A DNA stretch of 64,000 nt, from positions 1,426,001-1,490,000 of the forward strand of contig NZ_LT629765.1 in NCBI RefSeq assembly GCF_900105305.1. The letters are read 5' to 3'. The DNA is from Corynebacterium timonense (GTDB taxonomy: Bacteria > Actinomycetota > Actinomycetes > Mycobacteriales > Mycobacteriaceae). Numbering within the stretch: the stretch's first letter is position 1; every line of letters begins with the position of its first letter. The notes under the pieces were generated by a model. It did no database searches. It had not been told where the DNA came from and saw only the letters and a program-made list of their open reading frames with translations. The position numbers were made by a program, and so were the translations under genes. Positions 6,449 through 33,090 of this stretch are shown piece by piece.

Positions 6449-7063
6449 TCAACATATTTTTGGAGGCCTAGTAGCCGAAATGACACTATGCGCGCGCCCA
6501 GCCGATTCGGAGTCAAAGGCGATATTGTACGCGCTATGAAACACGATCGAGCATAGCAAGCCGTATTTTCGCTCTAGAAAGCGCGAAATTAGTGCAAATA
6601 CACCCATATGTATTGCCCCGAGTACCGATCCAATCCGAAAATGGGTCAGGCCGAACCCAATACTGCCTAGGAGTATCGAAGCAGCGCCGCGATCTTCCCT
6701 CCAGATGAGTTCCTCTGAAGCTGCAACCGAAATGGTCAGGAAAATCTGGGATCTAGATAGCAGATAGAAACGATACTCCGGAATTCGGCGAGCTAGAGTG
6801 CAAACACTAAGGCCATGCCATAGAAAACCTGCGCACGAAGAAAGCAAGATGTGTCCAACTCCCACTTTAAAAGATGGAAACCTTTGCGAGTTCTGCGTGA
6901 CTATTCGTAGCAATGACGCACCGGCAATAATTCCGGTAGGGAAGTCGTGGTACCACCCTTCAGAGAGTTGGAGCTTTCCTGGCCACTTTCGGCGAGCAAA
7001 GAGAACAAGCTCCGGTCCTTTAAAGGTCCAAGCTAAATGGGTGATTTTTGATGGCGATATCAC
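6449..7063 (-). CDS. CPBP (CAAX/Abi-type) intramembrane metalloprotease of the RiPP cluster, PznE/SagE-like
   Basis: 204 aa, last gene of the RiPP operon. The CPBP motifs are present: SEELIWRED (Glu117-Glu118 with Arg122), GLTHF (His141) and FHSAYN (His176, Asn180), on hydrophobic segments. The start is GTG 7063, whose GTGA overlaps the TGA stop of the dehydrogenase gene, preceded by a GGGGGCAGAGAA ribosome site; this implies translational coupling. In streptolysin-S and plantazolicin-type clusters the gene in this place is proposed to remove the leader peptide or give immunity. Either role is an inference here. Confidence 0.8.
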   Translation of the reverse strand: MISPSKITHLAWTFKGPELVLFARRKWPGKLQLSEGWYHDFPTGIIAGASLLRIVTQNSQRFPSFKVGVGHILLSSCAGFLWHGLSVCTLARRIPEYRFYLLSRSQIFLTISVAASEELIWREDRGAASILLGSIGFGLTHFRIGSVLGAIHMGVFALISRFLERKYGLLCSIVFHSAYNIAFDSESAGRAHSVISATRPPKIC

Positions 7064-7893
7064 TTCTCTGCCCCCAAAAGAACCACATAAAGTGCGGCAT
7101 CGTCTACACCGTTGTGGTCGGCGAGAATGGAGTTCACCTCGCAATCGATAAATCCTCCAAAAACTCGGGATTGAACGTTGACACTCGTTGACACGGTGAG
7201 CAGGTTCTGCGCAACATGACCGCACTCCATTAGACAAAAGCGCAGAGCTCGCTGAGAGTATTTGAAGCGGCTTCGCCAGAAACTCGCACTTATGATAACG
7301 AATGCCGATGCTTCGTTCGCTACCTCCGGTATTAAGAGAGCCTCGCCCAGAGAGTCGAGATCAACGTCGCTTCGAATATGCGCAAGTCCCTTTCTGTAGG
7401 GATCGAAGTGGTGCAGCTCTCCTGGTTCAAAAGTCTCGACTTTTCGAGACAGGAGATACAGATCAAGCGGGTAAAGAGCCCCGCCGGATGGTACGTTCCT
7501 CCGCGTCTGATCGCCATGACCAAATGAGTAAGCCCCATAAGAGTGATCGAGTATTTGGTGGATCGAAGACAGGGAGAGCTCACCTCCTCCGAATTGGGGG
7601 CAGGAACGCCGCGCTCGGAGCAAATCGTCTAGCCCACCCGGTAGTGGATCAGGTTCGCCTAGGTCAATGAAGGGCCTCGAGGAGTACCGTCTCGAGGCTC
7701 GCCCACTCATCTTTTGTAGTTCTGGCGATTGCAGCAGAGGAGGAATACCGGGAGTTTCCCAGGCGAGGCCGTCCCGCGTTAGCTTCGAGGCCTCAAAGTA
7801 GTCCTCACTGGGGTCGAACAGCTCTGGTACGCCGGTATTATAAACAATTTCCCGAAGGTTAGCGCTGTGACTTGCGTCGGCTGCAGATGACAT
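7060..7893 (-). CDS. SagB/PznB-type FMN-dependent azoline dehydrogenase
   Basis: 277 aa, nitroreductase-fold SagB-type oxidoreductase that converts thiazolines and (methyl)oxazolines to aromatic azoles with FMN. Diagnostic parts are RRNVPSGGALYPLDLYLL in the middle (the SGGxxYP motif) and RALRFCLMECGHVAQNLL near residue 215. A textbook ribosome site, AAGGAGAAAGATC-ATG, sets the start 11 bases after the YcaO stop. Its stop overlaps the CPBP start. Together with the YcaO and cyclodehydratase genes it forms the BCD synthetase of a TOMM peptide. Confidence 0.92.
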   Translation of the reverse strand: MSSAADASHSANLREIVYNTGVPELFDPSEDYFEASKLTRDGLAWETPGIPPLLQSPELQKMSGRASRRYSSRPFIDLGEPDPLPGGLDDLLRARRSCPQFGGGELSLSSIHQILDHSYGAYSFGHGDQTRRNVPSGGALYPLDLYLLSRKVETFEPGELHHFDPYRKGLAHIRSDVDLDSLGEALLIPEVANEASAFVIISASFWRSRFKYSQRALRFCLMECGHVAQNLLTVSTSVNVQSRVFGGFIDCEVNSILADHNGVDDAALYVVLLGAEK

Positions 7894-7904
7894 GATCTTT
7901 CTCC

Positions 7905-9299
7905 TTAGGGAAACGGATGGGGAAACGGATTAAAATCGGCAAAGTCTAGGTCATCCGACTGTAGTCCGAGTTCGCGAGCGCGCGTGCGGAGTCGTGTACT
8001 GCCAAGATAACGGCGATGGAATCCAACGTCCAACATTTGGAGCTGGGGGCTGAAGGCCTTGAAAACTGCGCCGCCTGCCTCGCGTACATCTGGACTTGTA
8101 AGGTCCTTCGCGAAAACCTCAATCTCTTGAGAATTCAGGGCTGATACGATGGCAGCAATCTCTTCATTCGGCGAGGTACTAGTAAAATCACTCCCCGAAG
8201 AAACACTAGTTCGCTTATCCGACGAGATAAGAAACTTCACGCGGTCGCGCGATTCCGCATTCGCATAAAAACGGATGTGATCATCAAAATCTCTAATCTC
8301 GGCTATCATGTCACAAGTATTGGGGTCGATTGCGTTGCCGTCTCGCTGCTCAGCCTTAACCCAATTCCTTGTTTGCAAACACTCAATCGCGGCGTCTTGT
8401 GCTGCCTTGAGTATTGTTGGACCAGCTGATGCTCCCAAGGCCACAGGTGCATGATCAGTGAATGGGTTAATTGCGACCGCTAATACTGCTGGAATGTTTG
8501 AGATGCTCGAGAGATCAATCAAATAGACGTCAATACCCGATGGTTTTACGTAACGAGCCATGAATTGAGATAGATCCGCGCTTGATTCAATATCGAGAAG
8601 AGGCATGCTGAGACCAGAGTGCCACGTAATCATGAATGCGTCACGCTCAACTAGCTCATAAAGACCACCAAGAATCGCCTCTGCCGGAGTCGAGTGAAAT
8701 GCTAACCCGCTGCTTGTTGCGTATCCTACCGCTGACTGCCCATAATGAGGATCGGTCGGGTATAAGTAGAGCATCTGAGACGGCACCCACACTGTATTCC
8801 CGTTGGCGAGGTTTTGGGCAGCTGACCAGTTCAATTCCAGATCGTTTGTCAATGGGCGATATTCAAAATTTGGATCCTCGAACTGTCTAGCGTGGAAAGG
8901 CGTCCACTGATCTGGGTGCACTCCTGGCGTCGAGTCTTTCCGCAACTCCGAGTAGCTGGTGCGCCGGAGACTTTCCCAGGGAACCCACGCCCCACTATAC
9001 CGTTCTACGCACTCACCAATAGCAGCGAGATAAGTCGCGGTCTCCGAGATCGCTCCCCCACCATTGAATTTGTTGTTGGTAGAACCGATGAGAAACTCTC
9101 CGTCTGCCGTTTCAGCCCCGATGGAATAGCAGTATGAATCGTCGATATCATGCACTTTGTCGAACACACGGCTCACAATGCCCACTCGGTCAGAAACCAG
9201 AAGGCGAGCCCGATTTATCCCGTCTTCCAAAGTAGACCATCGTTCCCCTGACGGCAGCTGAGAGTAATTAATATTCGATGATTTAGGTTTAGTACTCAT
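7905..9299 (-). CDS. YcaO-domain cyclodehydratase (TOMM D protein, PznD/SagD-like)
   Basis: 464 aa. YcaO proteins use ATP to activate peptide backbone amides so that Cys, Ser and Thr side chains cyclise to azolines. Signatures: AIGECVERYSG, SGLAFHSTPAEAILGGLYEL followed by VERDAF (ATP-binding Glu residues), and a C-terminus ending PFPHPFP, matching the proline-rich PxPxP tail needed by azoline-forming YcaO enzymes. The start ATG 9299 follows the previous stop by one base and is preceded by GAGGAATAAC; an open extension upstream overlaps the neighbour gene and is not conserved. Confidence 0.95.
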   Translation of the reverse strand: MSTKPKSSNINYSQLPSGERWSTLEDGINRARLLVSDRVGIVSRVFDKVHDIDDSYCYSIGAETADGEFLIGSTNNKFNGGGAISETATYLAAIGECVERYSGAWVPWESLRRTSYSELRKDSTPGVHPDQWTPFHARQFEDPNFEYRPLTNDLELNWSAAQNLANGNTVWVPSQMLYLYPTDPHYGQSAVGYATSSGLAFHSTPAEAILGGLYELVERDAFMITWHSGLSMPLLDIESSADLSQFMARYVKPSGIDVYLIDLSSISNIPAVLAVAINPFTDHAPVALGASAGPTILKAAQDAAIECLQTRNWVKAEQRDGNAIDPNTCDMIAEIRDFDDHIRFYANAESRDRVKFLISSDKRTSVSSGSDFTSTSPNEEIAAIVSALNSQEIEVFAKDLTSPDVREAGGAVFKAFSPQLQMLDVGFHRRYLGSTRLRTRARELGLQSDDLDFADFNPFPHPFP

Positions 9300-9300
9300 G

Positions 9301-10272
9301 TTATTCCTCGTGAAACCAAATTTGTGGATACCCAGTTCCAGACGCAGGCGAGCACTTTCGGCAGCGTGGAACGCGAAGCACTCGGTGGTTGGAAAGCTCA
9401 AACCCTTCCAGTCCATAAGATATTTCTGCGAACCCGCCCACGGGCGCCTGTCCCTGCGCTCCGTCGAGCGCGATGTGACTGACAATCGCATCGGTCAGCA
9501 TTGAGATCATCATCGAGGTCACCGCTGGCTGGCTACCAAAACGGTCCTGACGCGGTTTGACCGATTTTCCTACTCGCTCAATACCAGCCAATACCGGCTC
9601 GCGTTGCACACTTCCCGCTCGGAGCCGAAGACACTCAAAGCAAGCGGATTGATTCGGGTAGAACCACGGACCGATCCTGAATTTTCCTCCACGGGCTGGT
9701 GTAAGCGGCGTCCAAACGCGGATATCGGAACTGAGGGCAAGATCGTTTGCTTCGTACAATACTGGGTCATGCTCATCCGCGGCAACGATCACCATTAGAT
9801 CAGCCGAGACGTTCTTCGGTACTTTATGAACAATCGTTGGTTCCGCGATTGGGTAATGACGCAATTCGGCAGCCAAGCGGCTCACTGAAGAAGAGTGGTG
9901 TGGATCCACGACAAGAATATTGGCGTTTTCCAATCGTTTCGCAATGTCTTCGCACGGGACAAGCCGCCCGCTCCGGTTTGCTAGTGAGACAACTACATCC
10001 GGCCAAACGTTTTCACCACACGGTATTAGGATCTCAGTTTGCGCAAGGATATCGAACGCAGATCGGAGGCGGTCGATGTCTCCAGGCGAGTAATCACCAT
10101 TGGCTTCCGGAACACTCAGTTCCTCGGTAGTTGATAGGACCTCGGCTATAAATGGCCATAGTTTCCCGTCGGAAAGGCTGTAGGTGCTGGCCGCTGCTAC
10201 GATCACTACCCTTTCACCATCATACGAAACTCGCAGATCCGGATTAACCTGATAGGTTTTATTCTCAGTCAT
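9301..10272 (-). CDS. TOMM leader-binding / cyclodehydratase partner protein (C protein, E1-like)
   Basis: 323 aa, degenerate ThiF/E1-like partner of the YcaO enzyme that binds the precursor leader and delivers it for cyclisation. Two CxxC pairs for structural zinc are visible: CFEC at 211-214 and CRKC at 304-307. The stretch GPWFYPNQSACFECLRLR is characteristic of bacteriocin-biosynthesis cyclodehydratase proteins. ATG overlaps the stop of the preceding gene (ATGA), and its own stop lies one base before the YcaO start, so all three genes are coupled. Confidence 0.88.
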   Translation of the reverse strand: MTENKTYQVNPDLRVSYDGERVVIVAAASTYSLSDGKLWPFIAEVLSTTEELSVPEANGDYSPGDIDRLRSAFDILAQTEILIPCGENVWPDVVVSLANRSGRLVPCEDIAKRLENANILVVDPHHSSSVSRLAAELRHYPIAEPTIVHKVPKNVSADLMVIVAADEHDPVLYEANDLALSSDIRVWTPLTPARGGKFRIGPWFYPNQSACFECLRLRAGSVQREPVLAGIERVGKSVKPRQDRFGSQPAVTSMMISMLTDAIVSHIALDGAQGQAPVGGFAEISYGLEGFELSNHRVLRVPRCRKCSPASGTGYPQIWFHEE

Positions 10273-10976
10273 CGGCCCTCACTTACAGTTTTTCTGACAT
10301 ATTTCTTGAATTCAGTCAAAGCTTCATAGGTACCGACTGCGGTAACCGAGTCTGAGACTACTAGTTGTTGAGCGCCAATAACTCGGCTGCTAAGCGTCGG
10401 GTTCATCCCAGCATCTATCATTGCATCGAACAAATCTGAAGGTTTGGCCGGTTCGAGGCCAACACGGTAACCAAGTTCGGAACTCAAGATCTCGATAACG
10501 CGATCTGTCGGTACCGCGCCAAATACGGTACTTGCAGGGATGTCAGCCCCTGAAGCCGCAGCTGCAACGGCGCCCCGTAATGATTCTGCCGCCTGCTCGC
10601 GGCTCACCAAACTCATTACTTTTGCTGGTTCGATGAGAACCAATGAATGATACTTAACAACCTGCTTGATATCTTCTTTCCAATCTTCAACCTGCCGTGG
10701 AAGATTAAGGATTCGAGTTTCACCAAACTCGCAGATCTTTGACTGAACAGCGTCAATCCAAGAAAGGTATTCGGTAGCGCTTCCAGAAAGGTCTTCGTTG
10801 ATAATTTCCGGGCGTATGAGTAATCTTGTGGACGCAGATGCTGCAATTTCGATTTTCTCAACCAGTTCCTCACGATTCAGCGTGACAGCATCGATAACGA
10901 CAAGGGGCTCAATGACCTCAATATCGGCCAAAGTTTGGGCGATATGGATTCGTGAGCCGAGATAAGTAACCTTCAT
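10269..10976 (-). CDS. Unknown protein in the PznJ position of the RiPP operon
   Basis: 235 aa, soluble, with no motif I recognise. The N-terminal part alternates short hydrophobic strands (EPLVVIDAVTL; TRLLIRPEII) with acidic helices; the C-terminal part reads SDLFDAMIDAGMNPTLSSRVIG. ATG 10976 has AGGAGAG eight bases upstream; a TTG two codons earlier (10982) overlaps the methyltransferase stop. Its stop overlaps the start of the cyclodehydratase partner. In plantazolicin clusters an uncharacterised gene, pznJ, lies just before pznC, so this is the positional counterpart. Its biochemical role is not known to me. Confidence 0.6.
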   Translation of the reverse strand: MKVTYLGSRIHIAQTLADIEVIEPLVVIDAVTLNREELVEKIEIAASASTRLLIRPEIINEDLSGSATEYLSWIDAVQSKICEFGETRILNLPRQVEDWKEDIKQVVKYHSLVLIEPAKVMSLVSREQAAESLRGAVAAAASGADIPASTVFGAVPTDRVIEILSSELGYRVGLEPAKPSDLFDAMIDAGMNPTLSSRVIGAQQLVVSDSVTAVGTYEALTEFKKYVRKTVSEGR

Positions 10977-10978
10977 CT

Positions 10979-11686
10979 TCAACTCTCCTGAAATTCTACA
11001 AGAAAAAGATTTCCAAAATTCGACGAGTTTTCTATAGCGGGTCCAATCGCTTCTCCGGTATCTGTAAACAATGAAATATCTGCCCCTGGGAGTGCTCTGT
11101 CACAGAGCATTTGAAGTTCCTCACGTGTCAGCGAAACGTTGTACTGGTCTACAAGGAACTGCTTTCGCTGGTCAGAACTCACGTATCTCAGTAGTGGACC
11201 GGTTCTTAACAGGTCAACAATGACGATTCGGCCACCAGGATTGAGTCGCTTGCGCAATTCAGCGCACCGTCGCATAGGGTCGTCCCATAAGGCAACACTC
11301 AACGAAGAAACAATGACATCAGCGCGCGGCACAGAAGGTGGAATGTTTTCTACGCTAGCCCGTACGAATCGAACCCTACTTGACGTCAAGGACTCAGCCA
11401 TATGTATACCCGCCTTGTCTGGATCAACGCCGATGTAGCACCTGAAACTTTCCAACATCTCAGAAATCAATCCCTCACCACATCCCACGTCTAAAACTAG
11501 AGGAGGCGTATCTGTCACGAAATTATTAATCTGGGCAGCAGCGAAAGCAGAGTAGCGTGGCTCGACGGCCGCGTCATGCCGCCGAGCTACAGCAACAAGC
11601 GCGGGATCGAAGTACCATCGCCGTGCCCTGTTTATGACCTCCCCATCTCGCAATTCCTCCATCTTGGAGCCATTTAGGCATGTCAT
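10979..11686 (-). CDS. SAM-dependent methyltransferase of the RiPP cluster (candidate N-terminal Arg dimethylase, PznL-like)
   Basis: 235 aa, class I methyltransferase. Motif I is PPLVLDVGCGEG (residues 61-72), motif II the acidic YIGVDPD, with NPGGRIVIVDLL further on. In plantazolicin the PznL enzyme dimethylates the free alpha-amine of the core Arg after leader removal. The precursor here also begins its core with Arg, so the same chemistry is expected (inference). ATG 11686 overlaps the stop of the membrane protein gene (TAATG) and has GGAGG just upstream; the frame is open further upstream but lies inside that gene. Confidence 0.85.
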   Translation of the reverse strand: MTCLNGSKMEELRDGEVINRARRWYFDPALVAVARRHDAAVEPRYSAFAAAQINNFVTDTPPLVLDVGCGEGLISEMLESFRCYIGVDPDKAGIHMAESLTSSRVRFVRASVENIPPSVPRADVIVSSLSVALWDDPMRRCAELRKRLNPGGRIVIVDLLRTGPLLRYVSSDQRKQFLVDQYNVSLTREELQMLCDRALPGADISLFTDTGEAIGPAIENSSNFGNLFLVEFQES

Positions 11687-12291
11687 TACTCCTCCGTAGT
11701 CTCTCCGGATCCGGCTTCCTTTGAGTCTTTCGAAAAAGTTGAATTGACTGTCGCGAGACTCCCTTTCGTCGTTTTCTTTTTCTCTCGATATGGACCGATA
11801 AACCACCACAGAACCACTATGAATACAGCAACGACAACCCAATAGATTAACCAAAACGCATCTTGCAATCCGGTGACTAGAATTCCCGCACAAAGCAAGA
11901 TAACGCTGATCAGCGAAGCCATACACACACGCTTCCAGGTTGACATTGCTTTCTCATAGCCGTCTGTTTCAGGATCAGATCCCTTCGAATCCGATTCTTC
12001 CGATTCTCCAAAACGACGAGCGAATCGCTTGTCTAGGGTTCGAATGATTGTCGGCCCAACTGCAATGGAATATCCGATATATAGAGCGGATAAACCGTGA
12101 GCGAAATTCGCCGACTCACCGGTACTTAGGTCGACGTAGGTAAGAACTAGTAGTACAAAATCAACGACGGGAGTGGCAATTAACAGCCCGGCCCCGATCC
12201 GGGGGGCCCTCAATGCATACCGAGTGAAAAGTCCACCGAGAAGTAGGATCCAGAACAAAACTTCGGCTACCACGATAGCTACAAGAATCAA
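11686..12291 (-). CDS. Membrane protein of unknown role in the RiPP operon (possible immunity or export)
   Basis: 201 aa. Three hydrophobic segments lie in the first 85 residues (LVAIVVAEVLFWILLLGGLF; IGAGLLIATPVVDFVLLVL; ALYIGYSIAVGPTII), then a charged loop RFARRFGESEESDSKGSDPE, two more segments (ASLISVILLCAGILVTGL; LIYWVVVAVFIVVLWWFIG) and a basic/acidic tail. Start TTG 12291 has GGAGAT eight bases upstream, and no ATG is available near the N-terminus. It sits between the precursor and the modification genes. With no ABC transporter in the island it is the best candidate for self-protection or secretion, but no homology supports either. Confidence 0.65.
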   Translation of the reverse strand: MILVAIVVAEVLFWILLLGGLFTRYALRAPRIGAGLLIATPVVDFVLLVLTYVDLSTGESANFAHGLSALYIGYSIAVGPTIIRTLDKRFARRFGESEESDSKGSDPETDGYEKAMSTWKRVCMASLISVILLCAGILVTGLQDAFWLIYWVVVAVFIVVLWWFIGPYREKKKTTKGSLATVNSTFSKDSKEAGSGETTEE

Positions 12292-12337
12292 GCGGCGATC
12301 TCCAAACTGTAAGTAGTTTTGAATTTGGGAAATAAGT

Positions 12338-12390
12338 TAGGCTGCGGGACGCCTGGCTTTGGGAAACCCAGACATCCCGCAGATAAGCCT
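12338..12390 (-). promoter_or_regulatory. Strong intercistronic hairpin between precursor and modification genes
   Basis: CTGCGGGA (12375-12382, read on the minus strand) pairs with TCCCGCAG (12342-12349). The inner CTGG/CCAG pair (12353-12356 with 12368-12371) lengthens the stem, and AGG/CCT can extend its base. No U-run follows, so it is better read as a partial terminator or mRNA-stabilising processing site. Such an element would keep the precursor message in excess over the enzymes downstream. Confidence 0.65.
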
Positions 12391-12394
12391 TGGT

Positions 12395-12535
12395 TTAGCC
12401 ACCGCAGCAGCAGCAGCACGGCAGGGTAGTGCAAGTGCAGCGAGCGGCGGTAGGCTCGAATGCTTGGACCTCGGACACAATCTTGGAGGAGCCAGTCGAA
12501 ATTTCGGCCGGCAACGCGTTGATCAAACTGGACAT
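12395..12535 (-). CDS. Plantazolicin-like linear azol(in)e precursor peptide
   Basis: 46 aa. The leader MSSLINALPAEISTGSSKIV is followed by SEVQAFEPTAA, and the core is RCTCTTLPCCCCCGG (residues 32-46). The FEPTAA/RCTCTT junction matches plantazolicin (FEPMAA/RCTCTT, from memory), so cleavage after Ala31 is expected. The core has two five-residue cyclisable blocks, CTCTT (33-37) and CCCCC (40-44), split by Leu-Pro, with a Gly-Gly tail. If all ten positions cyclise they would give thiazoles and methyloxazoles. AGGAGATGAAATAA precedes ATG 12535. The gene has its own promoter and lies directly upstream of the modification operon. Confidence 0.93.
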   Translation of the reverse strand: MSSLINALPAEISTGSSKIVSEVQAFEPTAARCTCTTLPCCCCCGG

Positions 12536-12573
12536 TTATTTCATCTCCTTTTCAGGTTGACGATAGGACGGGC

Positions 12574-12591
12574 CCCAAAAGTATTTTTGGG
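12574..12591 (-). promoter_or_regulatory. Hairpin at the 5' end of the precursor mRNA
   Basis: CCCAAAA (12591-12585, minus strand) and TTTTGGG (12580-12574) form a perfect 7-bp stem with loop ATAC. With the promoter placed at 12601-12629, transcription would start near 12594, so this hairpin is the very 5' end of the message, about 40 bases before the ATG. Such 5' hairpins commonly stabilise abundant mRNAs. Confidence 0.55.
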
Positions 12592-12600
12592 ATGGCTCCA

Positions 12601-12629
12601 TCTATACCATCACCTGAAGCCTATGTCAC
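12601..12629 (-). promoter_or_regulatory. Sigma-A-type promoter of the RiPP operon
   Basis: On the minus strand GTGACA (12629-12624) is followed by exactly 17 bases and TATAGA (12606-12601), with a TGG extended -10 just upstream of the hexamer. It lies about 65 bases before the precursor start and is the only good promoter I see in the operon. Confidence 0.7.
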
Positions 12630-13127: not shown

Positions 13128-14218
13128 ATGCCTCTCGGCATCTCCCGCCAGCGCGTCTACAAGATTTTGGCCGAGTTCAACATCGGCGGAGCTGAGGCGA
13201 TCGCCCCGAAATCACGTGCGCCTCACACCCGTCCGCACGCCGTTCTTGCAGATCTGCGCAAACACATCATTGACATGCGCATACAACTCACCAAGGCTGG
13301 CTTCGACGCCGGCCCCGACTCCATCGCCTTCCACCTGGAGCGACAGGGCCTGCGAGTGCCGTCAACGTCGACGATCCGCCGGATCATCACCAACGCCGGG
13401 CTGGTAGCCCCGCAGCGGCGGAAAAAGCTCCGCAGCAGCTACATCCGCTTCGAAGCCGCCATGGTTAACGAGTGCTGGCAAGCCGACATCACCCACCTGT
13501 TCCTTAGCGACGGCACCAGGGTAGAAGTCCTCGACTTTCTCGACGACCACTCCCGCTACCTGCTGGGTGTCACCGCAAAAGCAGCCTTTACCGGGGTAGC
13601 AGTCGCCGCAGAACTACAACGCCTCGTTGAAACCTACAGCCCACCCGCATCCACGCTCACAGACAACGGCCTCGTTTTCACAGCCCGCATGGCCGGGCGC
13701 AAAGGCGGGCGAAACACCTTCGAAAAGGTCTTGACAGACCACCGCATCCAACAGAAAACGGCCGCCCAGGCCATCCATAAACCCAAGGTAAAATCGAACG
13801 ATTCCACCAAACGCTCAAAAGATGGATCAAGGCCCGACCACCAGCCGAAACAATTGACCAGCTGCAGAAACAACTCAACGAATTCGCCGACTACTATAAC
13901 ACCCAGCGCCCGCACCGCTGCCTCGGACGCCACACACCGAAACGGCCTACACCCACGGCCCGAATGCCGAACCAAAAGCCACCCCCGCAGACGAATGGCG
14001 CACACGAAACGACATCGTCGCACCCAACGGCGAAGTCAGTATCCGCTACGCCGGCCGCCTGTATCACCTTGGAATCGGCCGAGCCTGCGTCGGCGGAAAA
14101 ATCCTCATGGCCATCACCGACAACCACATCACCCAAAGAAACCGGCGAAATCATCACCGAGCACTACATCGACACACCCCGCGACACGCCGACACCAGAC
14201 ACACATTTTGTCGCTTAA
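13128..14218 (+). pseudogene. Decayed IS481-like DDE transposase
   Basis: The first part reads as an HTH (LGISRQRVYKILAEFN) and the start of the DDE domain (CWQADITHLFLSDGT, then LDFLDDHSRYLLG and STLTDNGLVF). The rest is spread over three frames. Near 13760 one base is missing in an A-run, an in-frame TAA replaces CAA near 13783, then GKIERFHQTLKRWIKARPP with the catalytic Glu continues in the next frame. A second single-base loss lies near 13938 and a third shift near 14135 before KETGEIITEHYIDTP. The expected N-terminus is also missing. The element cannot move on its own. Confidence 0.85.
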
Positions 14219-14307
14219 CCCGCGACCCACCCCTGCAATAAGAAACAAAACCGGCGCCCCGAAAAAATAAGCCGGTGTGTCCATCATGTCGCGACGGAGG
14301 ACAAAAG

Positions 14308-14380
14308 TGGAGCTAAGGGGAATCGAACCCCTGACCTTCGCATTGCGAACGCGACGCTCTACCAACTGAGCTATAGCCCC
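14308..14380 (-). tRNA. tRNA-Ala (anticodon CGC)
   Basis: 73 bases folding as a standard cloverleaf: acceptor GGGGCTA/TAGCTCC with discriminator A, D-arm GCTC-AGTTGGTA-GAGC, anticodon stem TCGCG/TGCGA with loop TTCGCAA (anticodon CGC), and T-arm AGGGG-TTCGATT-CCCCT. No CCA is encoded. It borders the RiPP island on its right side and is a plausible integration site, although no duplicated 3' end was found at the left margin. Confidence 0.95.
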
Positions 14381-19259: not shown

Positions 19260-19871
19260 ATGAAGCTTGTCCACGAGCTGCGGACCCCCAGCCACCGCCG
19301 CAGCGTGCTCATCCGGCGCGTCCTCGCCCTCGCCTTGGTGGTGGCCGCGGTATTCAGCGCTGCCTCGACGCGTGCGCGTGAGCCGGAGGTCCTCGTCTTC
19401 GCTCGTGACGTTGCCGCGGGCACTGTCGTCAGCAGCGAAGACGTCGAGCTTCGCCGTCTGCCCGCCTCGGCCGTCCCCGCGACCGCGCTCGGCGCCGTAG
19501 CAGACGCCGAAGGCACAACACTGGCCGCCGGCGCGGCGGCGGGGGAAGTGGTGACGCACACGCGCCTCGTCGGCCCGGAGCTGAGCCGTAGCCTCGCCCC
19601 CGAGGGCGACTACACGATGGTCCCTGTCGTCCTCGCCGAGCCGGAGATCGTGCCGCTTTTGCACCACGGGGCGCACGTCAGGGTGATCACGCTGGCCCCG
19701 GAGACGGGGGCGGCGGTGACGGTGGCGTCGGGGGCGCGGGTCGTGCTCGCCAGCACGGAGGCTGCCGAACCCAGCGTGTTGCTTCTACTGCGCGCCGAGG
19801 AGGCTGCCGCCGTCGCGGCCTCGTCCCTCGCGGCACCGTTGACGGTCGTGCTGGAAGCCCCGCCGCCCTGA
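19260..19871 (+). CDS. SAF-domain protein, CpaB/RcpC-like, exported
   Basis: 203 aa. A membrane segment follows the basic N-terminus (RRVLALALVVAAVFSAAST), then a SAF domain: VLVFARDVAAGTVVSSEDVELRRLPA and LAAGAAAGEVVTHTRLVG. SAF domains occur in CpaB-type pilus assembly proteins and antifreeze-like enzymes. No pilus genes lie near, so the function is open. It starts seven bases after the folate gene, suggesting co-transcription with it. Confidence 0.7.
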   Translation: MKLVHELRTPSHRRSVLIRRVLALALVVAAVFSAASTRAREPEVLVFARDVAAGTVVSSEDVELRRLPASAVPATALGAVADAEGTTLAAGAAAGEVVTHTRLVGPELSRSLAPEGDYTMVPVVLAEPEIVPLLHHGAHVRVITLAPETGAAVTVASGARVVLASTEAAEPSVLLLLRAEEAAAVAASSLAAPLTVVLEAPPP

Positions 19872-19961
19872 CGCTTTCCTCGCGGCGGCCACATCGTTAT
19901 CGTGGGCGTGGTCCGCAATCCACGACTGCACGCCGGCCTCGGCGTCATGAAAAGGAGAGAC

Positions 19962-20423
19962 ATGCTCACAGGCTTTCGGGACTTCATCCTGCGCGGCAAC
20001 GTTGTCGATCTCGCCGTCGGTGTCGTCATCGGCTCCGCGTTCACCGCGATCGTCACCGCGTTTTCGGACTCGATCATTAACCCCCTGCTCAACGTCTTCG
20101 GCGGCGCCGAAGTCGGGGGCTTGAAGCTGACGATCCTGCCTGGCCGCGACGACACCGCCCTCGACTTCGGGATGCTGCTGACGGCGATCATCAACTTCCT
20201 GCTCATCGCCGCCGTCGTCTACTTCCTCATCGTCACCCCGATGAATAAGCTGGATCAGCTGCAAAAACGCCACCGCGGCGTCGAGGAGACGGCCCCGGCC
20301 CCGACCGATACGGAGCTGCTCACCGAGATCCGTGACCTCCTCGCGGCCCAGGCTCCGCAGGGTCAGAGCCCGCAGGGCACCAGCGGCGCCACGGACACCG
20401 ACACCCCCGGCGCGCCTCGGTAG
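19962..20423 (+). CDS. mscL: Large-conductance mechanosensitive channel MscL
   Basis: 153 aa. GFRDFILRGNVVDLAVGVVIG is the conserved N-terminal amphipathic helix and TM1 (pore); TM2 is FGMLLTAIINFLLIAAVVYFLIV, followed by a cytoplasmic bundle helix. The Pro/Gly/Thr-rich tail is longer than in E. coli MscL. AAAAGGAGAGAC-ATG gives a clear start at 19962. The channel releases solutes under hypo-osmotic stress. Confidence 0.93.
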   Translation: MLTGFRDFILRGNVVDLAVGVVIGSAFTAIVTAFSDSIINPLLNVFGGAEVGGLKLTILPGRDDTALDFGMLLTAIINFLLIAAVVYFLIVTPMNKLDQLQKRHRGVEETAPAPTDTELLTEIRDLLAAQAPQGQSPQGTSGATDTDTPGAPR

Positions 20424-20436
20424 GGCGCCTCACGCC

Positions 20437-20601
20437 CTAGTCGCCCCCGTAATGCGGGGGCTTTTCCTGTGTGTAGAACTCTTCGTCGAGCTGCTCTGCG
20501 CCCGGCTCGTCTCCCTCCTCGGGGCGCGCCGTCGGCGTGTCCGCGTCCCGGTCGTAGTCCACGTCCGCTCGGCGCGTCGCCCTCCTGCGGGGGCGCCTCA
20601 C
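20437..20601 (-). CDS. Small acidic conserved protein (54 aa)
   Basis: Reads VRRPRRRATRRADVDYDRD then an acidic stretch ending EEFYTQEKPPHYGGD. The basic head and acidic, Tyr/Pro-rich tail look like a genuine small corynebacterial protein of unknown function. GTG 20601 overlaps the stop of mog (GTGA), so it is translationally coupled and ends the htrA-mog operon. The mscL terminator hairpin lies within its last codons. Confidence 0.6.
   Translation of the reverse strand: MRRPRRRATRRADVDYDRDADTPTARPEEGDEPGAEQLDEEFYTQEKPPHYGGD
20443..20465 (+). terminator. Rho-independent terminator of mscL
   Basis: GCCCCCG (20443-20449) pairs with CGGGGGC (20455-20461), loop TAATG, followed by TTTT. It lies inside the 3' coding end of the convergent small gene, so that gene's last codons double as a terminator stem. 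Confidence 0.75.
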
Positions 20602-21167
20602 TGGAGGCTGTACCGGTTGAGCTCCCCGACCAAGTGCGTGACCAGCGGAGCGCAGGTGGAAATCCCGTCGCGGATCGCCTGGCGCGAGGGGGCGAGGTTG
20701 ACCACGACGGTGGAGCCTGACACGCCGCAGATCCCGCGCGAGGTGCACGCGTCCACGGCACCGCACGCCTGGCCCGACGAACGAATGGCCTGTCCCACGC
20801 CGGGCACGAGCTTGTCGATGACGCTGCGCGTCGCCTCCGGCGTCTTGTCCCGGGGGCCTACTCCGGTTCCGCCGAGGGTGAGCACGAGGTCGGCGCCCCC
20901 GACGACGCCCGTCTCGATGGCCTTGCGGATATCGGACTTCTTCGATTTCACTCGCACGACCCCGTCAACGGTGAAGCCGAACTCGCCGAGGAGCTCGCAC
21001 ACGAGGCGGTCCGTGTCGTCACCCTCGACCTCGAAGCGGTGGTCGGAGACCAGCACGACGAGCGCGCGGGGCAGGATGGGATCCTCCTCCAGCTCCGCCG
21101 CGAGAAGGACCGCCTCGTCCGGGTCACTCAACTCGTACTTGTCCAGCGCTTCCAACGCGTCCGTCAT
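20598..21167 (-). CDS. mog: MogA/MoaB-type molybdenum cofactor protein
   Basis: 189 aa, molybdopterin adenylyltransferase family. ALVVLVSDHRFE at the start of the fold, then LVLTLGGTGVGPRDKTPEAT (the GGTG motif that binds molybdopterin) and a late SGSTVVVNLAPS. AAAGGAGAACACC-ATG sets the start at 21167; a frame open upstream to 21206 lacks conservation. It lies downstream of the HtrA-like protease, as in the mycobacterial mprAB-pepD-mog arrangement. Confidence 0.85.
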   Translation of the reverse strand: MTDALEALDKYELSDPDEAVLLAAELEEDPILPRALVVLVSDHRFEVEGDDTDRLVCELLGEFGFTVDGVVRVKSKKSDIRKAIETGVVGGADLVLTLGGTGVGPRDKTPEATRSVIDKLVPGVGQAIRSSGQACGAVDACTSRGICGVSGSTVVVNLAPSRQAIRDGISTCAPLVTHLVGELNRYSLQ

Positions 21168-21233
21168 GGTGTTCTCCTTTGGTGTGCACGGGGGCGTGCG
21201 GGGCAAGCGACATATGTCTGTTCCGCTATGAAC

Positions 21234-22439
21234 TTACTCCGAACTCAGCGTTACCTCTACCGTTTCAGTCGCCTCGCTTCCGGGGCGGCGAACCTCCAGC
21301 TCAACGGTCTCACCGAAGTCGCGGGAGCGCGTTGCAGCGATGAGTGCGTCGGCGGTATCGATGGGGCGCTCCCCCAGCCGCGTGATCACGTCGCCCGCCT
21401 CGAGGCCGGCCTCGTCCGCGGGGCTTCCCGGTTCGACGCCCGCCACGAACGCGCCGCCCCCGGTGTTGCGGATGTCCACCTGCACGCCGAGCATCGGCTG
21501 CGTGGCCTCCCCCGTCTCGATGAGCTGCTGCGCGACGCGCTTGGCAAAGTTCGAGGGGATTGCGAAGCCGAGGCCGATCGAGCCGGACTCGCCGCCCATG
21601 CCCGTCGACAGCGACGCGATGACGGAGTTCATTCCCACGAGGTTGCCGTTCATGTCTACCAGCGGGCCGCCGGAGTTGCCGGGGTTGATCGCGGCGTCGG
21701 TCTGGATGCCGTCCATCAGCGAGCTTTCGGTAAAGCCCTGCGCCGCGCGCACCGGCCGGTTGAGGGCGGAGACGATGCCGCTGGTCACGGTGGCCGACAG
21801 GCCGAGCGGGGAGCCGACGGCCACGACGTCCTGGCCGACCTTCAGGTCGTCGGAGTCGCCGAAGTTGATAACGGGAAGATTGGCGGCGTCGTCAATCTTG
21901 ACCACGCCGATGTCGGTGTCCACGTCGGAGGCGACGAAGGTGGCGCTGTGGCGGGAGCCGTCGTTAAGCGTGGCGACGATCTCGGCGGCCCCGTCCTCGG
22001 CGGCCGAGATGACGTGGTGGTTGGTCAGCACGTAGCCGTCGGAGGAGATGATGGAACCGGAGCCCTCGGCCACGCCTGCTCGCCCGGCGACCTCGAGAGA
22101 GACGACGGCCGGCAAAACCGCGGCCGCGACCTCTTCGACCGAGCCCTCGGGGGCCTGCGTCTCGTTTGGCACGCTGTCGGCTTGAAGGGCGTTGTAGGCC
22201 TCGGCCTGCGAATTGTTCGTGGCAAAGACGCCGCCCGCGTACCCGGCGCCCGCGCCGACCAGCAACGCGGTCACGAGCGCGATGGCGACTACGCCGCCGG
22301 TTCCGGGCCCCGTGCGGCGGTTCTTTTCGGCGGGCGCAGAGGCGGGGGGCTGGTTCACGACCGGCTGCTCGGAGGTGATGTCGGTGTCAGCGGGCCGACG
22401 CTCCGGCTCGTATGGCTGCGGCGGCATGTCATTATTCAT
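21234..22439 (-). CDS. Membrane-anchored HtrA-like serine protease with PDZ domain
   Basis: 401 aa. A Pro-rich cytoplasmic N-terminus, a single transmembrane helix (GGVVAIALVTALLVGAGAGY), then a trypsin-like domain with the triad His in VLTNHHVIS, Asp in DVDTDIGVVKI and Ser in INPGNSGGPL, and a C-terminal PDZ domain (AFVAGVEPGSPADEAGLEAG). It resembles mycobacterial PepD, a quality-control protease controlled by MprAB, whose genes lie just upstream here. Confidence 0.9.
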   Translation of the reverse strand: MNNDMPPQPYEPERRPADTDITSEQPVVNQPPASAPAEKNRRTGPGTGGVVAIALVTALLVGAGAGYAGGVFATNNSQAEAYNALQADSVPNETQAPEGSVEEVAAAVLPAVVSLEVAGRAGVAEGSGSIISSDGYVLTNHHVISAAEDGAAEIVATLNDGSRHSATFVASDVDTDIGVVKIDDAANLPVINFGDSDDLKVGQDVVAVGSPLGLSATVTSGIVSALNRPVRAAQGFTESSLMDGIQTDAAINPGNSGGPLVDMNGNLVGMNSVIASLSTGMGGESGSIGLGFAIPSNFAKRVAQQLIETGEATQPMLGVQVDIRNTGGGAFVAGVEPGSPADEAGLEAGDVITRLGERPIDTADALIAATRSRDFGETVELEVRRPGSEATETVEVTLSSE

Positions 22440-22515
22440 GAGTCGCTATTATTCCCGCCGCATCTGGTTGGCGTCTACCGGTCCCAACAGGGCGTCCGTA
22501 ACGTTTCCTGTGCCT

Positions 22516-23919
22516 TCACTGTGCGGCGCGCACCCCGGCAGGCCGCCAGCCGGGCAGCACCACGCGCATACGCGCGCCCCCGTCTGCGGACTCCCCCGCT
22601 TCGATCGAGCCGCCGTGCCGCTCCACCACGTGCTTCACAATGGCGAGGCCGAGTCCCGACCCCGGCATCGCCCGACCTTCCGGAGAACGGTAAAAACGCT
22701 CGAAGACGACCTCGCGCTCGTCCTCCGGGATCCCCGGGCCCGAGTCATCCACCGTGAGCACGGCCTTTGTACGCCCCGCTTCGAGGCGCACGCGCACTGT
22801 GCTGCCCTCCGGGGACCACTTCGCTGCGTTATCGAGGAGGTTGACGGGCATGCGCGCCAGCTCTTGCCGGTCTCCTTGGGTCATCCACGGGTCAAGGTGG
22901 GCGTCGAAGGACACGTCGAGGCGGCGCCTGCGCACCCGCTCGAGCGCTCGCTGGACGACCTCGTCGATGCGCACGGGCTGCGCTTGCCGTGGCGCTTCAT
23001 CCTCGCGGGCGAGGTCGATGAGGTCGCCAATGAGCGACGACATCTCCTCCAGCTGCGCTATGACGTCGCGCTCCAAGGCGTCCTTTTCCTGCGGCGGCAG
23101 GTGCTCCATTTGACCGGTCCGGCTGGCCATCATGAGCAGCTCGATGTTGGTACGCATCGAGGTCAGCGGCGTCTTCAGCTCGTGGCCGGCGTCGACGACG
23201 AGCCGCGCCTGGCGCCGCCGCGACTCCGCCAACGACTCCATCATTCCGTTAAAAGCCGAGTTCAGGCGCGCCAGTTCGTCGTCGCCTTCGACCCGAATCT
23301 CGGCCAAGTCTTCCGTCTTGCGCACGTGCTCGACCGCGCTTTCGAGGCGCCGGATCGGCCGCATACTCGCGCGGCCGACAAGTTCGCCGACCGCCCGGCT
23401 GAGCACCAGCGCGAGGCCGACGACGATGGCGAAAATGATGCCAAGATCGCGCAGGAGGCGCTTGTCGGGGTCGGGACTTTGCGCGAGGGCGATGGCCCTG
23501 CCACGGGAGCCGCGCTTGACCACCACACGCTCGCCTCCCACCTCGCGCACGGACGTTTCCACCCCGTACTCGTCCGGCTCGAAGTCTCCGCCGACGGGCA
23601 CCGGGTCGCCGATATACGCGTCGGAGCCCGGGAAAATGTAGGAGGCCCGCACGTCCGGGTTGAAACGCTTAAAGGACGACAGGTTGCGCGCCATCTGCTC
23701 AGCGTCAGTAGTACTTTCCATGTCCGCCAGCAGAACGTTGGCTTTCGTCTCCAGCTCTCTATCCGTGCTCACGTTGATCGAGTGCTGCGCGATACCGTAG
23801 CTGGAAATGGTGGCGCCGCCGACGACGAGGACCGCGACCAAGAGCGTCATCAAGGCACGCAGTGCGGGGTCGGCGTTCGGCGCGAGGCCCCGGAAAAATG
23901 CAGGGCCCGATTGTGTCAC
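22516..23919 (-). CDS. mprB: Sensor histidine kinase MprB-like (CgtS2-type)
   Basis: 467 aa. TM1 near residues 20-45, an extracytoplasmic sensor, TM2 ([20 protein letters not shown]), a HAMP linker, the phospho-acceptor [13 protein letters not shown], and the ATPase N/G boxes ([29 protein letters not shown]). GTG 23919 overlaps the mprA stop (GTGA). It pairs with the regulator upstream; MprAB systems respond to envelope stress and control the HtrA-like protease. Confidence 0.9.
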
Positions 23920-24614
23920 GGGGCGGACTCCCGAAGGACGTACCCGACGCCGCGCACGGTGTGGATCAGCCGATCCTCCCCTCCCGCTTCCGTCTTGCGG
24001 CGCAGGTAGCCGATGTAGACCTCGAGCGCGTTACCCGAGGTGGGGAAATCGTAGCCCCAGACCTCCTCGAGGATGTCCTGGCGGGACAGCACCTGGCGGG
24101 GGTTTTCCAGGAAGTACTGCAGCAAGGAGAACTCAGTGCGCGTCAGCGAGATGGGCCGTTCCCCGCGGCGCACCTCGCGCGTGTCGGTGTGCAGCTCCAA
24201 GTCCTCGAACTGCAGGTTCTTGCTCGCGCGCCGGCCGCCAGAGACGGCATCAAGGTTGGCGCGGCGCAGCAGCGAGCGCATGCGGGCGAGAAGCTCCTCG
24301 AGGGCGAACGGTTTGGCAAGGTAGTCGTCGGCGCCCGCGTCAAGCCCCGCGACCCTGTCGGCGACTCCGTCGCGGGCCGTCAGCATAAGAATCGGCTTTT
24401 CGTAGCCCGTGGAGCGCAGGTTACGGCACACGCTCAGCCCGTCGAGCTTGGGCATCATCACGTCGAGAATGGTGAGATCGGGCTGCTCATGACGGATCGT
24501 CGCGAGCGCCTGCTCCCCGTCCTCCGCGAGCACGACGTCGTACCCATTAAAAATGAGTGAGCGGCGGAGGGACTCCCGCACCGCCTGCTCATCATCCACC
24601 ACTAGAATTTTCAT
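23916..24614 (-). CDS. mprA: Response regulator MprA-like (OmpR family)
   Basis: 232 aa. Receiver domain with DDEQ at the N-terminus, phospho-accepting Asp in [13 protein letters not shown], Lys in [15 protein letters not shown], and a winged-helix DNA-binding domain ([22 protein letters not shown] ... [24 protein letters not shown]). First gene of the mprA-mprB pair, with htrA, mog and the small acidic gene behind it. Confidence 0.93.
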
Positions 24615-24674
24615 GTGTCCATTATGACGTATGCGTCTCGCATTCGGTCATTTGGGGCATAATTATCTGCGCAT

Positions 24675-24707
24675 ATAAAAACCGGGCAGCCCGACGGCTG
24701 CCCGGTT
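24675..24707 (-). terminator. Terminator of the rpmE2-rpmF transcript
   Basis: On the minus strand AACCGGGCAGCC (24707-24696) and GGCTGCCCGGTT (24691-24680) form a 12-bp stem with a four-base loop, followed by TTTAT. It lies just after rpmF. Confidence 0.85.
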
Positions 24708-24728
24708 GCTGCGCAGGGCGCGAGAGTT

Positions 24729-24902
24729 TTAGAACTGCTCGACGTCGATAAGCCCTGCCTTGGCCGCCTTCACCAGACGGCGCGGGATGCGCACCTCCTG
24801 GCCGTCAATCTTGACGGTCTGCAGCTCAGGGTTGTTGGCCTTCCACTGCGAGCGGCGGGAGTGCGTGTTCGCACGGGACTTGCGGAACTTGGGGGTTGCC
24901 AT
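24729..24902 (-). CDS. rpmF: 50S ribosomal protein L32
   Basis: 57 aa: [20 protein letters not shown], ending IDVEQF. It is the short actinobacterial L32 with the basic N-terminus and no CxxC zinc motif. It starts 30 bases after the L31 stop and is followed by a strong terminator, so L31 and L32 share a transcript. Confidence 0.92.
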
Positions 24903-24932
24903 GTCGTGTTCTCCTCCTTCGGCCTGATCGTG

Positions 24933-25205
24933 TTAGTTCGCGGACTTCTTCTTGCGGCGCGCCATGCCACCGAAGCGCTTGTTGAACTTCTCAACACGCC
25001 CAGCGGTGTCCATGAGACGCTGCGCACCGGTCCAGAACGGGTGGGACTCGGAGGTCACGTCGACGACGACGAGCGGGTACTCGTTGCCGTCCTCCCACGT
25101 ATCCGTGCGCTCGGAGGTCATGGTGGAACGGGTCAGGAACTTGTGGCCGGTGTTACCGTCCTGAATGATCACCGGGTGGTAATCCGGGTGGATCTCATTC
25201 TTCAT
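24933..25205 (-). CDS. rpmE2: 50S ribosomal protein L31, type B (zinc-free)
   Basis: 90 aa. [20 protein letters not shown] and [26 protein letters not shown] are typical L31. It has no cysteines, so it is the C-minus (type B) form that replaces zinc-containing L31 when zinc is scarce. In several actinobacteria such genes are under Zur control; no clear Zur box was recognised upstream. First gene of the L31-L32 pair. Confidence 0.92.
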
Positions 25206-25348
25206 AGCGGATTCGTCTCCCTCAGGATTGAACTTCGGGTCGGTTCCGGCCGCTAGCCGGATCGTGCCCGAGTTGGGTGCGAAAATGGTCCTTCACCCGA
25301 CTTTCGCCGGGCAACCTGCAACATCTTACAGCTCAGAGCCCTATACAC

Positions 25349-25777
25349 CTAATTTCGCGCGACCGCTTTTCGACGCCACAGCAGCGCCGCCCCGAGCACA
25401 GCCTGGGCGGCCCCGCGGACGACCCACGCCCGGGCACGGAACGCGATGGGATAGGCCGCCGTGAGCAGCGCGATGGTGAGGTGCATGCCACCGTGGGTGC
25501 CCGCCGCCCACCAGAAGGACCCGAAGGTGTACACCTCCCCGGCAGCCAAAAGAGACATGCCGAAGGGAACGGCGAGGAAGGCTAGGTGGTCAAGCGCCGT
25601 GCGCTGGCCGCCCGAGGACCACAGGTGAGCGAGGGTGAACGCCGCCGTGGTCCACGCGACCGTCAGGAAGGGCCACGGGCGGGTGACGCCGAAAAGCCAG
25701 CCCCGGTAGACCAGTTCCTCGGGTATTGCCTGCAGCAGGTACGACCGTACGAGGACCCAGATCAGCAGGATTGCCAC
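25349..25777 (-). pseudogene. CPBP intramembrane protease, 5' end missing
   Basis: The CPBP core is intact: PEELVYRGWLFGV (EExxxR), AAFTLAHLW (H) and WWAAGTHGGMHLTIAL. The reading frame stays open upstream to about 25927 (GIAGGTAIAAVPVAAAWLLLG) but has no usable start there; a TGA closes it exactly where the composition changes to the island. GTG 25777 would give only 142 aa, short for the family. I read it as a core gene cut at its 5' end by the arrival of the defence island, though expression from the GTG is possible. Confidence 0.6.
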
Positions 25778-25927
25778 GGGGCCTGCGCTTGCCGCTTCCC
25801 CGACCCCCTGGGGCAGTGATTCCGCCGGCCCGCCGACTGCGCCGAGGAGCAGCCACGCCGCCGCGACAGGAACGGCCGCGATGGCGGTTCCTCCTGCGAT
25901 CCCCCGGGGGTTTCGGAAAACTCATTG

Positions 25928-26328: not shown

Positions 26329-27555
26329 ATGTTCACCTCGCTGCACCGCGCGCTCGGTCTTCCTGCTGGCCCTATCACCGACGAGATGATCACCCAGGCT
26401 GTGGAAAATAACGTCCCGGAGTCAGAAGACCTGGACTTCAAACAGTCGCTGCCATTGAAAGAGTCGTTGGTGCAGTCGGACGTTAAGAAGGACTTGGCGG
26501 CTATGGCTAACTACGGCGGTGGCGTGATCATCTACGGAGTCACCGACTCGGACAGTCGTGCCGGAACACGCCTCGACACCGGTGCTGTAGATGACAACTA
26601 CATCCAGGCCTATCAGCGCGTCGCGTATAACCACATCACGCCACCGCTGCACAATGTCGAAATCGTGCCCCTCGTCTCGGGCGACGGCACGCATGCCGTA
26701 GCGGTTATCGTCCCGGCAAGCCAGCAGGTTCCGCACATGCTGATTGGTAAAGACAAGAAATTCAACGTTCCGATCCGCCACGGGGCTGACACCGACTGGC
26801 TTTCCGAATCAGAAATCGCCCGCCTTTACCAGCAGCGCTTCAGCGCCGCTAAGCAGCGTCGCGAGCTGCTCACTGAGCTCTACGAGCGCACAAAGCAGCT
26901 CGCATCTCACTCGGGGTTTTGGGCGGTCGGCGTAGCGAGACCCGTGACGAGAACCGTGACAGCGCCCATGGAAAGCCAAGACGTGAGCCAGTTCGCAAAA
27001 CGGTTGGTGAACCAGAAGGAGAATCTCTGGGACTACAGCAGGTCGGAAACACCCTTTGGTGCGTACTGCGCAAACGTGTATCCGCGCCGTGGGTTCCGTA
27101 GTTGGCGCTATCTGCTTCCCTCGAAAGAAGGCGGTCACCCGGAGTCGTACCTCGCTTTCCATGACGACGGGGCAGTCTCGGCGCTGGTGAACCTTCCCGC
27201 CCAGGAAGAGGGAAACTCGATACACGCATTCTTCGTCGAGGCATTCATTGCGGATCTCATGCTCGCCGCCCGTGGGATGAGCAGAAAGCATGGTAGTCCG
27301 GAACACGACCTCCGGGTTGGAATCGAGTGGGAGGGCAGTGAGCCGCTGCGTTTGCACCGGTCGCACGAACTAGGAGCGTTCGATCCGCTTCCCGTCACGA
27401 AATTCGTTCCGGTGGAGGCGACGGTGGACCTTTCGAGCGATGGCACGTTTTTCGACAACGCCGAGGCAATTGCAGAGGACTGCCTCAACCAGGCGGGTAT
27501 TCGTGGTTCGAAGATAATTCCGAGGGGGCGAAACACCGGTGCGCTCAGCGACTGA
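26329..27555 (+). CDS. AlbA_2 / Schlafen-domain ATP-binding protein
   Basis: 408 aa. The N-terminal third is an AlbA_2 (Schlafen-like) domain: ESEDLDFKQSLPL, DVKKDLAAMANYGGGVIIYGV (the conserved NxxGGxxxxGV) and HAVAVIVPASQQVPH. The C-terminal ~250 residues are not recognisable. Proteins with this domain occur as transcription regulators and in phage-defence islands, where some act on nucleic acids. It stands alone on the plus strand beside genes typical of defence islands. The start is ATG 26329 with a promoter just upstream. Confidence 0.8.
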   Translation: MFTSLHRALGLPAGPITDEMITQAVENNVPESEDLDFKQSLPLKESLVQSDVKKDLAAMANYGGGVIIYGVTDSDSRAGTRLDTGAVDDNYIQAYQRVAYNHITPPLHNVEIVPLVSGDGTHAVAVIVPASQQVPHMLIGKDKKFNVPIRHGADTDWLSESEIARLYQQRFSAAKQRRELLTELYERTKQLASHSGFWAVGVARPVTRTVTAPMESQDVSQFAKRLVNQKENLWDYSRSETPFGAYCANVYPRRGFRSWRYLLPSKEGGHPESYLAFHDDGAVSALVNLPAQEEGNSIHAFFVEAFIADLMLAARGMSRKHGSPEHDLRVGIEWEGSEPLRLHRSHELGAFDPLPVTKFVPVEATVDLSSDGTFFDNAEAIAEDCLNQAGIRGSKIIPRGRNTGALSD

Positions 27556-27774
27556 GCGGCCGATTATGTCAATTCAGACCGTGCGCCACACGCTGGTAAC
27601 GACGAACGCAAGAACCTGCGCGGTGACCGGCTCGGAGCCGTTTTGGCAGCACTGGTTGGCCGGTCTCGCGTGGCAGAGGTATTTGACTTGGCAGCAGGTG
27701 CAGCAGGATTGGCCGGATATGGACAGCGGGTCACTACAACAGTTAGTCAAATAGAGGGTCTTGTCCGTGATTGA
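27556..27774 (+). pseudogene. Possible coding remnant in frame behind the AlbA_2 gene
   Basis: Directly after the TGA at 27553 the same frame stays open for 72 codons and reads like protein: GDRLGAVLAALVGRSRVAEV and VFDLAAGAAGLAGYGQRV. It has no start codon, and it overlaps the 3' end of the convergent 296-aa gene by 32 bases. It may be the end of a gene that lost its beginning, or a former C-terminal extension of the AlbA_2 protein cut off by a nonsense change. Low certainty. Confidence 0.25.
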
Positions 27775-30326: not shown

Positions 30327-30344
30327 GATCGTTTTAATGGGCGC

Positions 30345-33088: not shown

Positions 33089-33090
33089 GT

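Follow-up and report, generated by a model that had tools for sequence, protein, structure and literature searches.

A predicted plantazolicin-class peptide cluster in Corynebacterium timonense and a candidate immunity gene

Does a compact group of genes in Corynebacterium timonense encode a complete pathway for a plantazolicin-like azole peptide, and is that pathway likely to be in use? The group lies in a 64,000-nucleotide stretch of contig NZ_LT629765.1 (assembly GCF_900105305.1, positions 1,426,001 to 1,490,000), hereafter the window, whose own numbering is used throughout. Eight intact genes, all read in one direction on the minus strand and ordered A, M, L, J, C, D, B, and E, occupy positions 6449-12535, and very probably represent the complete set for a linear azole peptide of the coryneazolicin type—that is, of the plantazolicin class. 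Assignment to this class is based on matches to curated families, an eight-gene order shared with other loci, the kinship of the methyltransferase to BpumL/BamL, and a core that conforms to the published rule.

Gene set and predicted product

The genes, with likely starts where these differ from the listed open reading frames (ORFs), and the space after the precursor gene are as follows.

12395..12535, minus strand: A, precursor peptide of 46 residues (TIGR04218, 69 bits against a cut-off of 45)
12335..12394, minus strand: hairpin after A, preceding M (-33.3 kcal/mol, z -6.2)
11686..12291, minus strand: M, membrane protein of 201 residues with five predicted helices and a tail; candidate immunity (or export) protein
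10979..11686, minus strand: L, S-adenosylmethionine (SAM) methyltransferase (likely start 11686; listed ORF start 11926)
10269..10976, minus strand: J, 237-residue protein with a predicted NmrA-like atypical short-chain-dehydrogenase fold (likely start 10976)
9301..10272, minus strand: C, E1-like leader-binding partner carrying a pair of CxxC motifs (TIGR03882 and motifs)
7905..9299, minus strand: D, YcaO cyclodehydratase with the C-terminus PFPHPFP (likely start 9299; listed ORF start 9491)
7060..7893, minus strand: B, SagB-type azoline dehydrogenase (TIGR03605)
6449..7063, minus strand: E, putative leader peptidase resembling CPBP/CAAX membrane proteases (likely start 7063; listed ORF start 7237)

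The original prediction, made from the sequence alone, had placed a precursor, a membrane protein, a SAM methyltransferase, and a protein of unassigned function in one direction, followed by a cyclodehydratase partner, a YcaO protein, a dehydrogenase, and a CPBP protease, with most genes overlapping. All eight genes were found in that arrangement. Most of the extensive overlap among the listed ORFs comes from upstream extensions, as judged from homologue lengths and ribosome-site-like sequence, on which the shortened starts of L, J, D, and E are based; with these likely starts, the genes from M to E overlap by a few bases at most or are separated by gaps of up to 11 bases. Gene A is preceded by AAGGAG and lies 103 bases from M.

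Precursor A, whose C-terminus is AARCTCTTLPCCCCCGG, matches the NCBI model for the 'plantazolicin family TOMM (thiazole/oxazole-modified microcin) peptide', TIGR04218. This model was silent in all 14 control genomes, and across the phylum it matched 2 of 396 genomes, namely that of the window and one with a 21.5-bit match inside a 729-residue frame; A is therefore not a chance match. The leader ends in FEPTAA and the core is RCTCTTLPCCCCCGG, which reads R-CTCTT-LP-CCCCC-GG and follows the core rule given in PMC4603692: an Arg first, then five heterocyclizable residues, two nonpolar residues, and five to six heterocyclizable residues. With ten azoles and two methyl groups, the predicted product has an [M+H]+ of 1351.28 (1353.29 if one azoline is left), so that the locus, as a further Corynebacterium member of a small antibiotic class, supplies a mass to look for. 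The same mass formula, applied to the plantazolicin core, returned 1336.48 with one azoline left, and a review gives [M+H]+ 1336 for plantazolicin (PMC4517070).

The predicted enzymes were recognized one by one. The partner C carries CFEC at 211 and CRKC at 304, the two CxxC motifs anticipated earlier, and matches TIGR03882 (48.8 bits against 36.9). D matches PF02624 (225 bits) and the SagD-type YcaO model TIGR03604 (286 against 219 bits), with the PFPHPFP ending confirmed, and B matches TIGR03605 (99 against 78 bits), its SGGALYP at 136 corresponding to the predicted SGGxxYP. L matches Methyltransf_11 in Pfam (5.9e-13), and its nearest solved relatives are BpumL/BamL (4kwc, 4kvz, and 5dm1); the six best Protein Data Bank sequences are these or members of the same family (2.1e-14 to 3.2e-11), the next standing at 7.8e-5. 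For M and J, Pfam and NCBIfam searches gave no family above cut-off.

On the basis of these families, C would bind the leader of A and pass the core to D, which, using ATP, would cyclodehydrate Cys2, Thr3, Cys4, Thr5, Thr6, and Cys9-13, with B oxidizing the resulting azolines. E probably cleaves after FEPTAA, freeing Arg1, whose amine would then likely be dimethylated (N-alpha) by L. The membrane protein M most likely shields the producer.

The genus and the joint presence of YcaO and SagB proteins would also suit another kind of linear azole peptide, such as a cytolysin or the coryneazolisins found in C. diphtheriae and its relatives. However, coryneazolisin clusters are described in a passage of PMC4603692 as containing lanthipeptide-like dehydratases and two D proteins, whereas no lanthipeptide-like dehydratase family was matched among the eight genes and D has a single match in the whole genome. 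Furthermore, TIGR04218 is the only NCBIfam model matched by the precursor, and a different class is accordingly a very remote prospect.

Relatives of the cluster

The distribution of the cluster was surveyed with D as the single query in a pattern scan of one genome for each of 84,980 species. The scan confirmed three loci, in Rothia aerolata (75% identity in the best segment), in Brevibacterium aurantiacum ATCC 9175 (69%), and in a distant one (25%), and is non-exhaustive, as a second Corynebacterium locus, in genome G622, was not listed. G622 is probably C. urealyticum DSM 7109; a cluster in C. urealyticum was reportedly described by Molohon et al. in 2011. Among 242 genomes of the genus, TIGR04218 matched three: that of the window, G622, and G577, the last at 34.9 bits, under the cut-off of 45. 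The Rothia, Brevibacterium, and G622 loci (L001, L002, and L009) all contain the eight genes in the order seen in the window, with identities to the window proteins of 80-83% for A, 83-85% for B, 71-80% for D, 66-74% for C, 63-72% for M, 53-60% for L, 50-55% for E, and 47% for J. The designation plantazolicin-like is thus borne out by the TIGR04218 match, by plantazolicin methyltransferases as nearest solved relatives of L, and by the gene order in three other loci.

The cores of these relatives are RCSCTTIPCCCCCGG (G622), RCSCTTVPCCCCCGG (Rothia), and RCSCTTLPCCCCSGG (Brevibacterium), and every change among them and the window core preserves the heterocyclizable or nonpolar class of the position; all three have the leader stretch SSKIVSEVQAFEPTAARC unchanged. 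The G622 precursor is 80% identical to that of the window, and both cores have the same ten heterocyclizable positions and a Pro-Cys5-Gly-Gly tail, with Ser3 and Ile7 in G622 in place of Thr3 and Leu7. The G622 proteins L, C, D, B, and E are 55-85% identical to their window counterparts, and J is 47% identical. In B. aurantiacum ATCC 9175, by contrast, the core ends in CCCCSGG and the cluster has a G+C content of 0.57. Two further precursor relatives appeared in the protein collection: P0011 has a shortened core, RCSCTTVPCRCGG, in which an Arg interrupts the Cys run, and P0010, filed under Burkholderia multivorans with a longest contig of 566 bases, is probably a contamination.

A more divergent form is carried on a plasmid of a C. 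tuberculostearicum skin isolate, CTNIH20 (NZ_CP073097.1, L012), with a plantazolicin-like cluster at 19802-25863 and a precursor at 20871-21032 that is missing from the collection's incomplete gene table. The cluster positions on a 25,974-base contig of G577 agree with those of this plasmid. The plasmid has L, A, C, D, and B, plus an ORF with a weak likeness to E (27.6%, 6e-4), the leader and core meet at FEPTAARC, and an inverted repeat follows A directly. However, the core is RCSCSSSTCCVLCVKK, D is only 39% identical, the precursor falls under the TIGR04218 cut-off, an ABC pair lies between A and C, and M and J were not detected.

Coryneazolicin is reportedly a plantazolicin-type product of a Corynebacterium cluster with antibacterial activity (said to be from Takuma et al., 2019, J. 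Antibiot. 72:800), and is presumably the G622 peptide. The transporter of the Bacillus pzn cluster is pznG/H. Bacillus plantazolicin and the window cluster share a core that begins with Arg and holds two sets of five heterocyclizable residues, together with B, C, D, a methyltransferase, and a putative CAAX-like E. They differ in that the window core has five Cys residues and Gly-Gly in its second half, and perhaps also in that the window carries M. Moreover, the window has eight genes with no transporter gene matched, whereas PMC4517070 gives twelve for Bacillus, pznFKGHIAJCDBEL. According to PMC4603692, plantazolicin clusters occur in Bacillus, Clavibacter, Brevibacterium, and Corynebacterium, which, together with the cluster-bearing contig of G577, agrees with the earlier claim that the class occurs in Corynebacterium. 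Heterologous production of coryneazolicin in E. coli appears as a reference title in PMC11278768, a linear azole peptide cluster with a methyltransferase is noted for three B. aurantiacum strains in part of PMC5719810, and PMC11447909 and PMC12889095 mention both plantazolicin and Corynebacterium. A literature search of limited coverage found no paper joining plantazolicin with C. urealyticum or with orphan immunity. The class, its occurrence in Corynebacterium, and coryneazolicin are already in print, and the window cluster adds a further member.

The Rothia and G622 loci share 6,300 bases at 96.8% identity, containing A to E, with no other match between their 20-kb stretches, which indicates a recent transfer between genera. 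The window copy is 69% identical in DNA to both.

Genomic site, decay in a sister species, and the role of M

The cluster has a G+C content of 0.51, whereas single kilobases of the flanks have 0.65-0.71, apart from 0.59 at a transposase; it sits between a cation-efflux gene and a tRNA gene. Two features mark its right-hand side.

13128..14270, plus strand: IS481-like transposase ORF adjoining the cluster (NF033577, 137 bits against a cut-off of 224; only residues 4-212 of 380 matched)
14307..14380, minus strand: tRNA-Ala(cgc), found by ARAGORN, the right edge of the variable site; alignment to genomes G569, G550, and G412 resumes at 14307

At the position of the cluster, G569 has 2.5 kb that include an apparent metal P-type ATPase ORF, G550 has 7.8 kb that include an apparent tyrosine recombinase ORF, and G412 differs again, making this a variable site. 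Base composition and a variable site beside a tRNA gene thus support the island proposed earlier, but the cluster is not peculiar to the strain, because G412 carries remnants at the same locus.

G412, a sister species, shares both flanks with the window (84.3% over 5,254 bases and 80.5% over 5,783), and has in the same place a 1.6-kb remnant at 81.0% identity (L040 = G412:C1:736000-752000, 7103-8832), without a stretch corresponding to the transposase ORF. In its present form, the precursor frame does not encode FEPTAARCTCTT any more; the hairpin is kept; the methyltransferase is split over two frames and has lost its last hundred or so residues, with a piece of the efflux gene directly after. 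J, C, D, B, and E were not found in this locus by tblastn. The sole cluster gene left whole is M, 206 residues long and 80% identical to that of the window.

This decay bears on whether the window pathway is used. Since G412 lost most of its cluster, the intact sequence of the window need not mean one in use, and three other observations also weigh against the plantazolicin-class reading: a search ahead of A turned up no sigma-70-like promoter; Pfam and NCBIfam searches of the eight genes matched no ABC transporter, unlike in the Bacillus pzn cluster; and E scored 19.5 bits against PF02517, under the cut-off of 22.4. E does carry the motifs EELIWR, FGLTH, and HSAYN (EExxxR, FxxTH, and HxxxN). 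The cluster might then be silent or failing, and retained mainly for M as self-protection against peptide-making neighbors, an outcome seen at this very locus in G412 and in line with M-like genes in 41 of 242 genomes of the genus against the precursor model in 3 of 242. However, no gene in the window is broken, the leader stretch noted above is unchanged in the three eight-gene relatives, and dN (nonsynonymous divergence) is far below dS (synonymous divergence) relative to G622 in A, M, L, B, and E, the five of eight genes with computable dS, that of J, C, and D being saturated. A silent or failing cluster therefore seems improbable, and an intact plantazolicin-class pathway is preferred.

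M, modeled by AlphaFold 2 as five membrane helices and a tail (pLDDT, predicted local distance difference test, 78.8; pTM, predicted template modeling score, 0.59), is present in all three other eight-gene loci. Its survival in G412 beside broken A and L genes, with the others undetected, fits immunity. Among the 39 M-bearing genomes besides those of the window and G622, eight contexts were read (L040-L047, 16 kb each), and only L040, the G412 locus, had another cluster gene at E 1e-4. This pattern could be what an immunity protein looks like, and the cluster and its decayed relative form a natural experiment that suggests M as a possible immunity gene of this peptide class. Caveats apply, in that the relatives in L041-L047 are as low as 31-48% identical, that one or more stops are read through in 18 of 45 match rows and the L044 frame ends early, and that the dN/dS of M between the window and G412 is 0.46; M may instead have a general membrane role. 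In L047 (G444, 6892-8276), the M-like gene is divergent to an apparent TetR-type regulator.

M might instead be an exporter that replaces an ABC transporter: judged by gene content, the 6.3-kb stretch shared by Rothia and G622 has no such transporter, and the CTNIH20 plasmid has an ABC pair and no detected M or J. However, M outlives the precursor and enzymes in G412, and its relatives occur without detected cluster genes in the seven other contexts read. As an export protein with nothing left to carry would hardly be retained, export is a possible but less favored role.

The hairpin after the precursor and protein J

In the window, L001, L002, and L009, the sequence that follows A forms a strong hairpin (z -6.2 to -7.8), a fold that none of 200 shuffles equaled in any of the four. 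Over five loci, including the G412 remnant, a 16-pair stem has 96.3% of cells paired, with 7 pairs changed on both sides. None of 500 shuffles reached its paired percentage, its number of both-side cells, or its covariation score, and 9 of 500 reached the number of both-side pairs; further pair types were no better than shuffled (255/500). Slid versions paired 31-45% of cells. The structure was drawn from the tested sequences, which favors it, but the compensatory changes stand nonetheless, and a post-A hairpin with such changes is a new observation. The inverted repeat of the CTNIH20 plasmid is perfect, 17 bases long, and begins two bases past the precursor stop.

Since no T run follows the window hairpin and a terminator scan gave no flag, the likeliest role is that of a partial block or RNA stabilizer, which would probably allow the precursor message to exceed that of the enzymes. 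The hairpin loop is inverted between the Rothia and G622 clusters (L001 7105-7156 and L009 9832-9883), otherwise about 97% identical, perhaps by template switching.

J models as an NmrA-like Rossmann-fold protein, an atypical short-chain dehydrogenase/reductase (SDR). The nucleotide-binding motif of such proteins is GxxGxxG; this Gly-rich motif was not found in J, its position being occupied by GxR in each of the 11 sequences aligned. No clear Pfam family emerged, five families being matched with E up to 1, the best of them Methyltransf_18 (0.0067, in 4 of 11 members). Within the genus, J occurs in 2 of 242 genomes, those of the window and G622, both with the cluster. More speculatively, M may found a five-helix family that protects against polyazole peptides in producers, in survivors of decay, and as single genes in about one-sixth of the sampled Corynebacterium species, with J as a cofactor-less SDR-fold scaffold peculiar to actinobacterial clusters.

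Elsewhere in the window, genes with a G+C content of 0.51-0.60 at 26329-35106 look like a defence island, and include proteins for type III restriction and methylation (30500-35106), a PADLOC PDC-S42 match (27743-28633), a Schlafen AlbA_2 protein, and one with DUF3800.

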